The position numbers were made by a program, and so were the translations under genes. Positions 38,603-44,234 of a DNA stretch of 64,000 nucleotides are shown piece after piece (within the stretch, counting starts at the first letter, position 1; each line of letters begins with the position of its first letter). The DNA comes from Planctomycetota bacterium. GTDB lineage: Bacteria; Planctomycetota; UBA1135; GCA-002686595. The notes below the pieces were generated by a model that had not been told where the DNA came from, searched no databases, and worked only from the letters and a program-made list of their open reading frames with translations. Location of the stretch: NCBI GenBank assembly GCA_029259595.1, contig JAJDEW010000010.1, positions 1 through 64,000 of the forward strand, given 5' to 3'.

Positions 38603-39478
38603 ATGAAGGTCAAAACGCTCCGCTTGGGCGGCTCCGGGCTGCTGCTCGTGTCCTTGTTCCTGTTGTCCGGCTGCGGCGCCGAATCGGCGGCGGCACCCGG
38701 CCCCTACGACGCGGCCAGCGCGGTCGAGCCGGCGGTGTTCCTGGACGGGCGCGAGGTCGCGCGCCCGCTGCCCGCGGACTTCGACGGCCGCCGTCCGCTC
38801 GCCGAGCTCCTGGCGGAGACCGGCGTCGACGTGCAGGACTGGACGTTGGTCGAGCTGCGCGCGGACGATGGCCGTCGGATGCCGCTCGCGCGGCCGGCCG
38901 CGACCTGGCCGGACCAGGACCTGCTCCTGTTCCGGGACGAGGACGGGCGTTCGGCGATCGGGCTCTTCCGTCGACCGGATGCGACGATGCCTGAGACTGT
39001 GCTCGCCCTGCTCGCGGAGCCCACGTTGCGCTTCGTGCTCCCGGCCTCGATCCGCGTGCACACGAGCGCCGTGCCGGAAGGGGCGGAGGGTGCGTCGCCC
39101 GCGCTCGTCGTGGAACTCGACGGGGAGGTGCTCGTGCGCTTGTCGCTGGAAGAGCTCGCCGCGCTCGAGGCGACGCCCCATACGGGGCGCGGCGAGGGAG
39201 ACGGCCGCCGACGCAAGGGCGACCGGGCCGGCCTCTCGAACACCTGGCCATTGGCCGATGTCGTCGCCTCGGTCGTGCCGCTCGAACGCGTTTGCGAGGT
39301 GCGGCTCTTCGACGCCGCCGGGACCGAAGAGTCCTGGCCCGCGGACGCGCTCCGGAACGAAACCGCGCCGGAGGCCTTGCTCAAGGCCAACCGGCGCGGG
39401 GAGCTCGTCTTTCGGGTCGCGAGCGAAGGGCGCGAGCTGCGTGGCGTCACGCGTCTCGCCCTGCGCTCGTGCCCCTGA
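38603..39478 (+). CDS. Lipoprotein of unknown function
   Basis: 291 residues with a lipobox ending at Cys24 (LFLLSGC). The mature part has alternating beta and charged segments, including VFLDGREVARPL and VDVQDWTLVELRADDGR; these resemble a repeated metal-free sandwich but no family is recognised. Its stop is five bases from the stop of the convergent gene at 39484. Confidence 0.65.
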   Translation: MKVKTLRLGGSGLLLVSLFLLSGCGAESAAAPGPYDAASAVEPAVFLDGREVARPLPADFDGRRPLAELLAETGVDVQDWTLVELRADDGRRMPLARPAATWPDQDLLLFRDEDGRSAIGLFRRPDATMPETVLALLAEPTLRFVLPASIRVHTSAVPEGAEGASPALVVELDGEVLVRLSLEELAALEATPHTGRGEGDGRRRKGDRAGLSNTWPLADVVASVVPLERVCEVRLFDAAGTEESWPADALRNETAPEALLKANRRGELVFRVASEGRELRGVTRLALRSCP

Positions 39479-39483
39479 GGTTG

Positions 39484-41034
39484 CTAGTTGCGGGACATCG
39501 TCAGGAAGTGCGCCCGGATCTGCTCGGGCAGCAGGATGTTCGTCACGCCGTTGCCGCCGTCGTTGTCGGTGTCGACGCGGACGTCGCCGGTCGTCTCGAA
39601 GACCGCGAGGTCATTGTAATTGGCGACGTAGTAGCGCGAGCCGCTCTTGTTGAACACGATCCCGCACGCTTCCGTCCCGCCGCTGAAGGCCGGGTCGGGC
39701 TGGCGCTCGTTGCTGTTGGAAAGGGTGAAGATCGAGAACGGGCTCGTCCCGTCGCGCGTCGGGTAGTACACCTCGCCGTTGCGAGCCGTCATGACGCCCG
39801 CCGCCTCACCCGCTCCCGTCGGAGTGAGCTGGGTCACGGCGAAGTTCGACGTGTTGACGACGTCGATGTCGATGGCCATGTTGCCGCCGAAACGATGGTC
39901 GTTGAAGCCGACCAGGAACCGGTCGTTGCCGGACCAGCAGCCCTGCTGAGCGAAGGTTCCGGCGCCCGGTGCGGACAGCGTGACGGGTTGGACGCCGGCC
40001 GTGCCGGCATCCGTGTCCACGAGCGAGAAGGACGCGGTGTTGATGAGCCAGAGCTCGTTGGCCGAGCCGTCGATCGTGCCGACGATCACCGCCAGCCTCG
40101 AGCCGTCCGGCGAGAGCTCGATCCGGCCGCCGAAGCGGCCCCCGGCGTCCATCGTGAAGAGGTTCAGGCGACCGACCTCGATCAGGCTGCTCTCGTCGAC
40201 GGCCACGACGTCCACGGTGGTGGAACCGACGACCCCACCGCTGCCGTCCGGCGCGCCGTAGGCGTGGGTGCCGACGTTCACGACGCCGTAGATGCGGCTC
40301 CCGTTGGCGGAGAGCGTGATGCCGCCGATGCTTCCGGAGGCCGTGCCCGAAAGGTCCGGGCCGGTCGCGATCGTGTACGTGCGCGTGTCGATCACGCCGA
40401 TGTTCGGGTTTTCCTTGTCGCCCGTGTAGACGAACTCGCCGTCGGCTGCGACGACCGCCTGGCGGACGTTGGCGGCGAGGCTGTTCGTGCCGATGATGCC
40501 CGTTTCGAAGACCTCACCGGAGAGCGACGTGTCGATCGCGAGGAAGTCTCCGCCGAAGTTGCCTCCGAAGAGCATCGCTGCGTCCTCGAAGGTGAGATCG
40601 ATCTCGATCGGGTCGACCGCGCCGGTGATCCCGGTGAAGACGAGGTTCTCCGTCCGCATCGCCGTCCGGTCGAGGCCCTCCGGGCCGTAGTAGGTGTAAG
40701 GCAGACCGCCGCCGGGCAGCATCGTGCCGGTCTGCGTACCCTCGTTGACCATTTGGGTGATGCCCTTCAGGTTGAAGAGCAGACGGCTGAAGTCGTTGCG
40801 CACCGTGAGCGAGACGGTGAGCATGTCGCCCGGATCGTCGTACACGGCGGTGGCCGAGAGAAACAGACGCGAGGGCTGCTGCGTGATCGTGACCCCGGCG
40901 GAGGTGAGGTCGATCGACAGGCTGCCGTTCTGAACGGGGAAGCCTCCACCGCCTCCTCCACTGCTACCGCCGCTGCTGCAACTTGCCAATGCGCCTGCTG
41001 CGAGCGCAACGCACATGTTCATGACCTTGGACAT
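39484..41034 (-). CDS. Beta-propeller lipoprotein
   Basis: 516 residues. AGGAAG lies six bases before ATG 41034. Lipobox around Cys19 (GALASC), followed by a Ser/Gly linker. The remainder is YVTN/lactonase-like: repeated V-x-D-T-R/A-x-x-x-x-V and G-x-x-I-x-L-S-P-D-G-S-R-L-A-V units, and GIVFNKSGSRYYVANY. Probably a surface or periplasmic binding propeller; ligand unknown. Confidence 0.72.
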   Translation of the reverse strand: MSKVMNMCVALAAGALASCSSGGSSGGGGGGFPVQNGSLSIDLTSAGVTITQQPSRLFLSATAVYDDPGDMLTVSLTVRNDFSRLLFNLKGITQMVNEGTQTGTMLPGGGLPYTYYGPEGLDRTAMRTENLVFTGITGAVDPIEIDLTFEDAAMLFGGNFGGDFLAIDTSLSGEVFETGIIGTNSLAANVRQAVVAADGEFVYTGDKENPNIGVIDTRTYTIATGPDLSGTASGSIGGITLSANGSRIYGVVNVGTHAYGAPDGSGGVVGSTTVDVVAVDESSLIEVGRLNLFTMDAGGRFGGRIELSPDGSRLAVIVGTIDGSANELWLINTASFSLVDTDAGTAGVQPVTLSAPGAGTFAQQGCWSGNDRFLVGFNDHRFGGNMAIDIDVVNTSNFAVTQLTPTGAGEAAGVMTARNGEVYYPTRDGTSPFSIFTLSNSNERQPDPAFSGGTEACGIVFNKSGSRYYVANYNDLAVFETTGDVRVDTDNDGGNGVTNILLPEQIRAHFLTMSRN

Positions 41035-41206
41035 GACGATCTTCCTGACGATAGGCCCGTCCGAGACGGGGGGGACCGGGGGAACGCGGAGCCGAGAGTC
41101 CGAACCGTAGGAAGCGCGGCAGGCTGCGTCAACGAAGCACGAAGAGGGCCGCACCTGTGGGGGGAAGAGGCGGCCCCACATGCATCGGCCGATTCGAGCG
41201 CGCGCT

Positions 41207-42073
41207 TCAGGGCGCAGCGACCGGAATCCGGTCGGTGGCGGGCTCCTTGCGGATGACCGAGCCCACGTTTTCGCCGCGCAGGGCCTTCGTGACCTGTCCG
41301 GGCACGAGCCCGTTCACGATCCGGATCTCGGTGACGCTGCGGGCGCGGTCGAGATACTCGAGCACCGCGCGCTCGACGACGATGTCGTCCTGGCCGCTGT
41401 CCAGCAACTCGCGGGCCGTGATCTCGGGGATGTGGCGCGCCGTCGGGTCCTTCTTGGGGTCGTCGGTGTAGAGCCCGTCCTCGTCCTTGATGAAGAGCAC
41501 GCCCTTGGCACCGAGGAACTCGGCGATCAGGTAGACGCCTGCGTCCGTCCGGTTGGCCGGGATGCGACCGACGGCGGGCGCCTTCTCCCAGAACTCGAAG
41601 GGCGGCATGCCCGACATGATCGGGATCACGCCCATCGAGAGGAACAAGGGCAGCTTCTCGAAGTCGTCGGGGTACACCATGATCCCGCCGTCCTTCGCGA
41701 GCAGCATCTGCAGCATGCGCGCGTTCTGGACCGGGACACTGGCGCCCACCTTGGCGAGCATCGCGGTCGGCAGATCCAGGTCCAGGGCCACGGAGTAGGC
41801 GTGACGCGCGCGCGTGCCACCGCCCGTACCCAGGAGGAACGACACGCCTTGCTTGCGCGCCGCCACGAGCTCCTCGAGGATCGGGTACACGGCCTTGCGA
41901 CCGCGGTCCATGATGCTCTGCCCGCCGATCTTCAGCACCCAGATGTCGGGCAGGATGGGGGCGATCGGGGTCGGCGTGCCGCCGGAGTTCGTGGCGTCGA
42001 GGCTCGAGAGCTTGCCCGAAAGGGCGTTCTCCATGCCCTCGATCCAGATCTTGCCGTTGCGCTTGGTCGTCAT
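41207..42073 (-). CDS. mosB: Molybdenum storage protein subunit beta (MosB-like)
   Basis: 288 residues of the amino-acid-kinase/UMP-kinase fold. Matches the Azotobacter MosB subunit in remembered motifs: VLKIGGQSIMDRGRKAVYP (Lys48), GTGGGTRARHAYS, SGMPPFEFW, RTDAGVYLIAEFLGAKG, KDEDGLYTDDP and the end VNGLVPGQVTKALRGENVG. In the known heterohexamer, ATP hydrolysis drives assembly of polyoxomolybdate or tungstate clusters inside a cage. Overlaps the mosA-like stop by ATGA, so expressed at matching levels. Chance of being a plain UMP kinase is low given these motifs. Confidence 0.85.
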   Translation of the reverse strand: MTTKRNGKIWIEGMENALSGKLSSLDATNSGGTPTPIAPILPDIWVLKIGGQSIMDRGRKAVYPILEELVAARKQGVSFLLGTGGGTRARHAYSVALDLDLPTAMLAKVGASVPVQNARMLQMLLAKDGGIMVYPDDFEKLPLFLSMGVIPIMSGMPPFEFWEKAPAVGRIPANRTDAGVYLIAEFLGAKGVLFIKDEDGLYTDDPKKDPTARHIPEITARELLDSGQDDIVVERAVLEYLDRARSVTEIRIVNGLVPGQVTKALRGENVGSVIRKEPATDRIPVAAP

Positions 42074-42948
42074 GAGGTCGTCTTCCCGTTGTTCCGTGCA
42101 CTCTGGGTCACGAGCGTTCCGACGGGCTCACCCGCGAGATAGGCGCGCAGGTTCTCCGGGCGTCGACCGTCGATGAGCCGGAAGGAGCGAACGAGCTTCG
42201 AGTTCTCGAGGCAGCGCAGGACCTCGCGTTCGATCGGCAGCTCGGGCAGGTTGCGCTCGAGCAACTCGGCGGCCGTGATCTCGTCGATGCGTTTGGCGTC
42301 GGGGTTCTCGAAGGGATCCGCCTCGAAGATGCCGTCGACGTCCTTCACGAAGACGAGCTGTGGCGAGCCCAGGATCTCCGCCATCAGGAAGAGGCCGACG
42401 TCCGAGCCGTTCTCCGGCAAGAGCCCTTCGCGCGCCGGCGGCTCCCAGAAGTGGTAGGGCGGCTGGCCGATGCAAACCGGGATCATGCCCTTGCTGATGA
42501 AGAGCTGCAGGTCCTGGAAGTGCTCCTTGATCAGGGTCACGGCGCCGTGGGGCGCGAGCAGGAACTGCAGCATGTCGCGGTTCTGCTCTTCGATGCCGCC
42601 GACGATGCGGGCCAAGCCACCGATCGGAAGTCCCAGGTCGAGCCCGATCTCGAGCGTGTGACGCGCGCGCGCTCCGCCGCCGACGCCCAGCACGAACTTG
42701 TGCCCTTCGCCGTGCAACGCCGCGATCTCACGCGTGAGCGGGACCAGCGCCTCGGCGCCGCGGTCCATGATGCTCGAGCCGCCTATCGCGACCATCGTGA
42801 TACCGGGCACCATCGCCCGCACGACGTCGTTGTCGGTCTCGCGCAGCAGTCGCGTGCTGACGAGCGACTCGCGCATCAAGCCCGAGCCGACGTGCGTGCG
42901 CCCGTCGCCGGTGAAGAGGTTCGAGGGGGACTGTCGGATGTCAGGCAT
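42070..42948 (-). CDS. mosA: Molybdenum storage protein subunit alpha (MosA-like)
   Basis: 292 residues of the same fold as the downstream gene, closer to MosA: VGGGARARHTLEIGLDLGLP, GQPPYHFWEPP, GSDVGLFLMAEILG and KDVDGIFEADP. The N-terminal about 48 residues are an extra arm, as in MosA. In the KIGG motif that binds phosphate the lysine is replaced by alanine (VAIGGSS, Ala54), whereas the beta subunit keeps lysine. ATG 42948 is chosen; a TTG at 42978 that overlaps the upstream stop (TTGA) would add ten residues. Confidence 0.82.
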   Translation of the reverse strand: MPDIRQSPSNLFTGDGRTHVGSGLMRESLVSTRLLRETDNDVVRAMVPGITMVAIGGSSIMDRGAEALVPLTREIAALHGEGHKFVLGVGGGARARHTLEIGLDLGLPIGGLARIVGGIEEQNRDMLQFLLAPHGAVTLIKEHFQDLQLFISKGMIPVCIGQPPYHFWEPPAREGLLPENGSDVGLFLMAEILGSPQLVFVKDVDGIFEADPFENPDAKRIDEITAAELLERNLPELPIEREVLRCLENSKLVRSFRLIDGRRPENLRAYLAGEPVGTLVTQSARNNGKTTS

Positions 42949-42974
42949 GGGGGGCTTGGCAACGGCTAGTGGGA

Positions 42975-44234
42975 TCAAACGAGCGGTTCCGGCGAGGGTT
43001 CCGGCACGTCGGGTGTGCTCCTGCTCTCGGGAGCCCCGGATTCGGGCTTGGCGAGCTTTCCGGACTCCGCGGCGGGAGTGTACGCCAACCAGTCATCGCT
43101 CCCCAGGAGGAACATGCTGACGAAGCCGCTCAGCGTGCCGAACACGACTTGCGAGACGAGCATCGGCGCATAGACGACGAACATCTCGAGCTTGGCGCCG
43201 GCCAGCACGATGACCGAGAAGTTGGCCGCGAAGCGAGCGGCGCCGAGCACCGCGCCCATGCCCATGAGCTGGATGAGTCGCCACAGGCCGCGTCCATGCA
43301 GGAACGGGACCAACAGGTCGGCCAGCAGGCCGGGGACGACGAAGTGCAGGACCTCGAGGATGCCGTAGCGTCCGTAGCCCAAGAAGAACGAGATCAAGCC
43401 GATCGTGGTCCCGGTCCACAGTCCGCCGAAGCGCGTGCGCGTGTGCTTCGCCGCCAAGAGGAAGAAGGGGATCAGGAGGACGTTCTTGTGGCCGGGTGCG
43501 ACGGGCAATCCCGGCATCACCTGCAGCATCTTCAGACCCATGGCGGCCAGCGAGACGCCGCTGACGAGTGCCAGGTCGCGCGCCCAGGCGCGCGAAGCCT
43601 CGGGATGTTCGCGCGCGACGCGCTCCTCGGCGCGATCGATCGAGCGCCGCAGGAGCTCGCGGATGAAGCTCAGGTCGCCGCGCCGGATGGCCGCGAAGTC
43701 GATCACCGGCCGATCGGTCGTGCGGTCCCGTCCGCGTCCACCGCCACCGCCGCCACCGCCACCGCGGCGGCCGCCGCCCCCTCCTCCACCGCCGCCGCTC
43801 AGCATCGCCAGCGTCCCGTCGATCGAGTACGCGACCGCGCGCGGCAACCGGAAGGTGGTCAAGGCCCGTACGAAGTCCGACGGCTGTCCGCTGTTCTGCA
43901 CCCACGTGCTGGCCAGGATCAACGTGGCGACGCGCAGCCCCATCTCGAGCGCGAGCGCCAGGCCGGCCAGGTTGATCTCCAGGCCGAAGGCGAGCTCGAC
44001 CCAGCGGTCCTCGGCCCGGCTCCCGGCCGAGAAGAAGGCATAGGTCACCGTGAGGATGACCAGGAACACCGTCATGCGGCGCGCGAGTCGCCCGAGCATG
44101 CGGAAGTCGAGTCGGCTCGAGGCCCAGAGCACGAGCTGCAGGAGCGCCAACCCACCGAGCAGCCACGGATCACGCAACAGGAAGAGGCCGACGGCGAGCG
44201 CGACGAGGTAGGCCAGTTTCAGCGTGGGCTTCAT
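42975..44234 (-). CDS. ECF transporter T component fused to an S-component-like domain
   Basis: 419 residues. The first half has about five hydrophobic helices and then a cytoplasmic region AAIRRGD and RRSIDRAEERVAREHPEAS (about 180-213), like the A-R-G coupling helices of CbiQ/EcfT. The second half (about 220-376) has six helices with a GTTIGLISFFLG to GLLADLLVPF pattern like ECF substrate-capture (S) units. The halves are joined by a Gly/Arg linker at 147-167. No ATPase gene is in the window. Its position 26 bases before mosA suggests molybdate or tungstate uptake; inferred. The tail is Pro/Glu-rich. Confidence 0.6.
   Translation of the reverse strand: MKPTLKLAYLVALAVGLFLLRDPWLLGGLALLQLVLWASSRLDFRMLGRLARRMTVFLVILTVTYAFFSAGSRAEDRWVELAFGLEINLAGLALALEMGLRVATLILASTWVQNSGQPSDFVRALTTFRLPRAVAYSIDGTLAMLSGGGGGGGGGRRGGGGGGGGGRGRDRTTDRPVIDFAAIRRGDLSFIRELLRRSIDRAEERVAREHPEASRAWARDLALVSGVSLAAMGLKMLQVMPGLPVAPGHKNVLLIPFFLLAAKHTRTRFGGLWTGTTIGLISFFLGYGRYGILEVLHFVVPGLLADLLVPFLHGRGLWRLIQLMGMGAVLGAARFAANFSVIVLAGAKLEMFVVYAPMLVSQVVFGTLSGFVSMFLLGSDDWLAYTPAAESGKLAKPESGAPESRSTPDVPEPSPEPLV

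Follow-up and report, generated by a model that had tools for sequence, protein, structure and literature searches.

Here, we describe a three-gene operon in 64,000 nucleotides of DNA from a Planctomycetota bacterium (assembly GCA_029259595.1, contig JAJDEW010000010.1, positions 1 to 64,000; this whole analyzed stretch is referred to as the window). With moderate confidence, we interpret the operon as a molybdenum/tungsten (Mo/W) homeostasis module that includes an ATPase-free membrane protein derived from energy-coupling factor (ECF) transporters. It consists of three open reading frames (ORFs) on the minus strand, in the order membrane gene (44234-42975, 419 amino acids [aa]), MosA-like gene (42948-42070, 292 aa), and MosB-like gene (42073-41207, 288 aa), where 26 bases separate the membrane gene from the MosA-like gene and the two Mos genes overlap by 4 bases. 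Since the order of this trio recurs across phyla, the arrangement is not due to chance. The source genome is a 6.07-Mb assembly in 186 contigs and is 90% complete.

The two Mos-like products were compared with PDB sequences using phmmer. The MosB-like protein (type 1, B1; 41207-42073) matched Azotobacter vinelandii MosB at 3e-69 (2ogx_B) and MosA at 1e-46, whereas its top uridine monophosphate (UMP) kinase match was at 3e-10. The MosA-like protein (type 1, A1; 42070-42948) matched MosB at 6e-49 and MosA at 1e-38, with the top UMP kinase at 3e-8. Pfam (AA_kinase) and NCBIfam assign only the general kinase fold to both proteins. At the sequence level, these scores confirm that both genes belong to the family of the Azotobacter molybdenum storage protein (MoSto) and do not encode UMP kinases, as a preliminary description of this DNA had proposed. 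The identity of either protein as a UMP kinase or another amino-acid-fold kinase was rejected given the far stronger MosA/MosB scores.

In a midpoint-rooted tree of 178 Mos sequences, in which Azotobacter MosA sits on a long branch and which therefore traces the A/B duplication only tentatively, type 2 (31 rows, support 98) holds Azotobacter MosA and MosB together with a second Mos pair of the source genome, located on contig C186 (L002:3794-5516). Unlike the C186 pair, the window pair lies outside the Azotobacter MosA/MosB clade, in the sister type 1 (147 rows), which has separate A and B clades and also includes a single-gene branch from Bacillota and Chloroflexi. The likeness to Azotobacter MosA and MosB pointed out in the preliminary description therefore holds for the family but not for the type; the window pair is a sister clade with ~42-46% identity (B), and it is the C186 pair, whose MosB matches at 3e-96, that is properly sister to Azotobacter MosAB in the source genome. 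The C186 pair is flanked downstream by genes for an ATP-binding cassette (ABC) ATPase and an ABC-2-like permease, and upstream by a methyltransferase gene; a methyltransferase also occurs near the type-2 pairs L077, L078, L086, L119, and L120.

As in the window, Azotobacter MoSto (PDB 2ogx, 4f6t, 6gu5) is built from two homologous subunits of UMP-kinase-like fold encoded by adjacent genes. We take its beta subunit to be the catalytic one, with a Lys in the active site and Met149 as a gate. The equivalents of MosB Lys42 (KIGGQS) and Met149 (SGMPP) are both retained in the window MosB1, and each is conserved in 66/66 B1 sequences. In the window MosA1, the active-site Lys is replaced by Ala (VAIGGSS), the equivalent of His156 is present (PPYH), and there is an extra KEH motif. 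Across the A1 clade, this Lys is lost, with mostly Ser, Gly, or Ala in its place, the His156 equivalent is found in 62/64 sequences, and the N-terminal His10 of MosA is retained. The Azotobacter MosA ligands Glu129 and His140 are absent from A1, and both also vary among the closest relatives of Azotobacter. In Azotobacter MoSto, His156 and Glu129 are covalent cluster ligands (PMC4504029).

The loss of Glu129 and His140, together with an annotation limited to AA_kinase and a storage role that is deduced for type-1 proteins from homology, would be compatible with the pair being kinases or regulators with an amino-acid-kinase fold. We consider this highly improbable, given that the sequences are far nearer to MosA/MosB than to any kinase, that the Met149 equivalent is universal in B1, that the genes are linked to those of the importers ModABC/TupABC, and that Glu129 and His140 vary even within Azotobacter's own clade.

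The membrane protein is composed of an EcfT/CbiQ-like (T) half (residues 1-148; 43791-44234), a Gly-rich linker that is predicted to be disordered (residues 149-172; 43719-43790), and an S-component-like (S) half (residues 185-385; 43080-43682). Only residues 2-136 are matched by Pfam CbiQ (34.6 bits against a cut-off of 25) and by TIGR02454 (47.8 bits, short of the required 111.8), the latter of which matches 31 of 34 fusion homologues. In whole-genome profile searches, the alignment to the CbiQ model extended only up to position ~146 of 216. Comparison of the T half with ten canonical CbiQ/EcfT proteins by hhalign gave a probability of 96.7 (E = 3.7e-10) over transmembrane helices (TM) 1-4, and the A-L-x-x-L-x-x-P motif is shared with them. 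The AlphaFold model of the whole fusion has a predicted local distance difference test (pLDDT) score of 84.9 and a predicted template modeling (pTM) score of 0.82, with a pLDDT of <50 in the linker. In a Foldseek search with this model, EcfT chains topped the ranking and ThiT, an S-component, came further down; a sequence search of the fusion against the PDB returned Gly-linker artefacts only, mostly single-chain variable fragment antibodies.

What remains of the T component is four N-terminal TM helices and the beginning of coupling helix 1; the motifs that dock the ATPase are missing. In the profile alignment with canonical CbiQ/EcfT, the Gly-rich linker, positioned by hhalign, stands where the canonical proteins have coupling helix 1 ending in Ala-Arg-Gly. 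The second such motif is decayed, and the S half replaces the last part of the protein. No Ala-Arg-Gly motif is conserved among the 34 aligned fusions; these arginine motifs of the T component are required for ATPase docking (PMC6828968). Over the aligned stretch, the linker of the 34 homologues has a mean length of 45 aa and is 44% Gly. Its net charge is positive in 28/34 (mean, +2.5), and the idea of a Gly/Arg-rich, polyanion-binding tail was dropped because this charge is too weakly positive.

The S half contains one cytoplasmic helix followed by six TM segments. When it was modeled alone (AlphaFold pLDDT, 88.3), the top Foldseek matches were RibU, FolT, and ThiT, with probabilities of 0.75-0.99 and TM-scores by target of ~0.56-0.60, and weak Trep_Strep matches were seen in 2-3 members of the fusion family. 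A profile of the S half gave no significant match to a solved S-component among PDB sequences. Its invariant residues (34/34) include P241, P244, G248, K250, G286, G291, P301, D306, and R334, which are located in the TM1-2 and TM3-4 loops and the segments after them. The first four fall in the motif PGLPVAPGHK of loop L1 (43485-43514), and G286 and G291 in the motif GYGRYG of loop L3 (43362-43379), which reads GDGRYG in most relatives. Both conserved loops are predicted to face outward, as judged from the positive-inside rule and from the topology of S-components described in PMC4820897. The S half shares with S-components (RibU, ThiT, FolT; Trep_Strep/MptD family) a six-helix fold and motifs in outward loops L1 and L3, and differs from them in its fusion to T and its invariant PGxPxAPGHK.

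Collectively, the comparisons of sequence, profile, and fold show that the membrane protein is ECF derived and joins an EcfT-like half to an S-like half, in agreement with the first impression of this gene. Judged by alignment of its relatives, they also show that the coupling region, with which a T component holds the ATPase, is gone from the fusion.

We searched 35 genomes that carry the fusion, including the source genome, for CbiQ, CbiO-like ATPases (scoring no more than the top 68 candidates in each genome), NifH, and ModB. The source genome has no CbiQ-like protein besides the fusion and no CbiO above the cut-off. A canonical CbiQ additional to the fusion was found in 8/35 genomes and a CbiO-like ATPase of >~150 bits in 7/35; in six of these seven, the ATPase is encoded on the same contig as a separate canonical CbiQ and within ~2 kb of it. 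No CbiO-like ATPase at E 1e-42 or better was detected among the scored candidates in 28/35 genomes, and in 26/35, the source genome among them, no canonical CbiQ was detected either. A functional ECF transporter has coupling helices with two Ala-Arg-Gly motifs and an EcfA/CbiO in the genome; the former were not found in the fusion, nor, above the cut-off, the latter in the source genome.

The preliminary description had placed the energizing subunit elsewhere in the genome, which would make the operon part of an ordinary ECF importer for Mo/W. Such an importer would fit a T half that is genuinely CbiQ-like, and at one Chloroflexi locus, TupABC and a Mos gene do have a full ECF system as a neighbor (see below). 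However, the T half stops before the coupling helices, and such ATPases as were found when the source and 34 other genomes were searched lie mostly beside separate canonical CbiQ genes. Because the docking motifs are gone and 26 of the 35 genomes lack both CbiQ and CbiO, a hidden ATPase is unlikely to serve the fusion; the earlier placement is not supported, and we regard an ordinary importer as very unlikely.

At two loci, Mos genes have ECF components as neighbors. In Chloroflexi L072 (1820-5022), TupABC and a single Mos gene adjoin an ECF system that is complete, with fused ATPases, a T protein of the CbiQ type, and an S protein; this S protein is related to the S half of the fusion (E = 2.4e-5). 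In Pelotomaculum L084 (3420-5839), two ECF-type ATPase genes, CbiQ, and MobB lie beside the Mos gene. Together, these loci point to transport of Mo/W, or of a compound related to them, by a system of the ECF type. They also suggest a history, which we infer, in which Mo/W handling first relied on an ECF system and only later did T and S fuse and the motor disappear. L072 also encodes a TupA-like binding protein (L072:6468-7847) whose N-terminal domain weakly matches Oxidored_molyb (E = 3e-4, below the cut-off).

A scan of GTDB genomes yielded 80 Mos loci from many phyla. The fusion is present in 43/80 of this first set, usually directly upstream of MosA-MosB, and the loci that carry it span Planctomycetota, Pseudomonadota, Myxococcota, Nitrospirota, Gemmatimonadota, and one metagenome-assembled genome labeled Cyanobacteria; the gene order is changed in one further Myxococcota genome (G569). 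With loci added later, the fusion accompanies 52/66 type-1 loci (from six or more phyla), 0/15 type-2 loci, and 0/11 single-gene loci. Some of the 14 type-1 loci without it are truncated by contig ends, and others, mostly from Kofleriaceae, truly lack it. Among 284 Myxococcota genomes, 12 have the fusion, 14 have Mos, and 11 have both (p = 2e-16), the one fusion without Mos being at a contig end. Among 392 Planctomycetota genomes, Mos occurs in 3 and the fusion in 2, the second fusion (G236) being cut by a contig end. Storage proteins of this type, initially called rare, are thus infrequent within these two phyla, although the family spans many phyla. The trio is also found in two other genomes of the source's family, and ModABC adjoins it in one of them.

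Genes of the Mod or Tup importers occur at 31/43 fusion-bearing loci of the first set. ModB was above the cut-off in 27/35 fusion genomes, including the source genome, in which ModA, ModB, and ModC are encoded together on contig C1. NifH was above the cut-off in 0/35 fusion genomes, with distant NifH-like proteins in two, and nitrogenase was therefore rejected as the client of the trio. Since the trio occurs outside nitrogen fixation in the genomes checked, the metal would serve other molybdo- or tungstoenzymes. This setting and the coupling to a membrane gene are further differences between the type-1 trio and Azotobacter MoSto.

Considering these data, we propose that MosA1 and MosB1 would form a MoSto-type cage of a family that is sister to Azotobacter MosAB. 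If the mechanism of Azotobacter MoSto is carried over to the residues conserved here, B1 would be the subunit that loads molybdate/tungstate with ATP, and A1 would be catalytically dead and contribute conserved histidines to the cavity. The fusion may act as an ATPase-independent membrane partner of this cage. It would bind a Mo/W oxyanion or small Mo/W species on the outside through its PGxPxAPGHK and G(D/Y)GRYG loops and pass Mo/W down a gradient, and trapping by MosAB would keep the cytosolic side low. High-affinity uptake would be left to ModABC or TupABC, which are neighbors in most relatives and encoded elsewhere in the source genome.

There is precedent for motor-free transport of the S type in solitary BioY, an S unit reported to transport without an ATPase module (Finkenwirth 2013, as cited in PMC4820897); unlike the fusion, BioY has neither a T half nor a storage cage. 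ModABC and TupABC handle the same metal oxyanions, but they are ordinary ABC importers with their own ATPase and are not homologous to the fusion. The TOBE-domain proteins Mop and Tub also store Mo and W in the cytoplasm (PMC11980592), with an unrelated fold, few oxyanions per protein, and no ATP.

Several observations weigh against the proposed module. The Foldseek E-values for the S half exceed 0.05, and the S-fold call rests on the high probabilities and the consistency of the families. About eight type-1 loci have sufficient upstream sequence and no fusion; the cage can therefore manage without it. Most of the genomes are incomplete assemblies, which makes the absence of an ATPase from any single one weak evidence. 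In addition, nearby ModABC/TupABC make a second importer partly redundant, and the fusion could instead serve in export, sensing, or tethering. A role as a dedicated uptake partner, another early suggestion, is thus one candidate among several.

In particular, the fusion might be a release valve that exports excess molybdate/tungstate, or returns metal released by the cage, and so guards against overload. Downhill export requires no motor, high-affinity importers are already in place, and the fusion is linked to storage genes. On the other hand, the ligand loops are predicted to be on the outer face, and characterized S-components are importers; we therefore consider export unlikely, though a serious alternative. 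We put a similarly low probability on a non-transporting fusion that anchors the MosAB cage at the membrane near ModABC/TupABC or reports external metal. The lost motor interface, the replacement of coupling helix 1 by a linker throughout the 34 aligned homologues, and the tight linkage to Mos would suit such a tether or sensor, but a mere anchor would have no need for the invariant residues of the S half, many of which are in the ligand loops. A more active role for the cage is also doubtful, namely that it replaced the ABC motor, with the S half binding molybdate/tungstate outside, a MosAB cage docked on the cytosolic face of the membrane unit receiving it directly, and ATP hydrolysis by MosB pulling the metal in through its fixation as a cluster. 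If true, a storage protein would take the place of EcfA in driving an importer of ECF origin.

The operon and its relatives have further neighbors. In the window, a gene for an M50 family peptidase with two CBS domains (45494-44307, minus strand) lies 72 bases upstream of the fusion gene on the same strand, and just 3' of the MosB gene lies the gene for a putative lipoprotein (39484-41181, minus strand) that resembles a beta-propeller (PD40) weakly. A secreted family with no assigned function is found near Mos operons at 17 Myxococcota loci (e.g., L047:390-1553 and L023:2567-3835), with several copies in Nitrospirota L048 (L048:9230-11408). Another window lipoprotein (38603-39478, plus strand) matches this family weakly and may be a distant member. 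A small secreted family of 12 ORFs adjoins the operon mainly in Gamma- and Alphaproteobacteria (L014:8858-9403, L016:3777-4262, L018:2321-3263, and L019:8777-9298); the two members scanned had no Pfam match.

To our knowledge, MoSto has so far been regarded as nearly confined to Azotobacter and as linked to nitrogenase. Indeed, it has been stated to have no known homologues in databases (PMC6448029). In the open literature, most subscription papers excepted, we found no paper linking ECF-type proteins to MosAB and no earlier description of the trio. The interest of our findings is in the widespread trio more than in the single locus. MoSto emerges as a two-branch family present in many phyla, one branch of which accompanies a motor-less, transporter-derived membrane protein. 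This raises two testable questions, namely what purpose a polyoxometalate cage serves other than in nitrogen fixation, and how a membrane protein of the ECF type works when it is unable to bind its ATPase.

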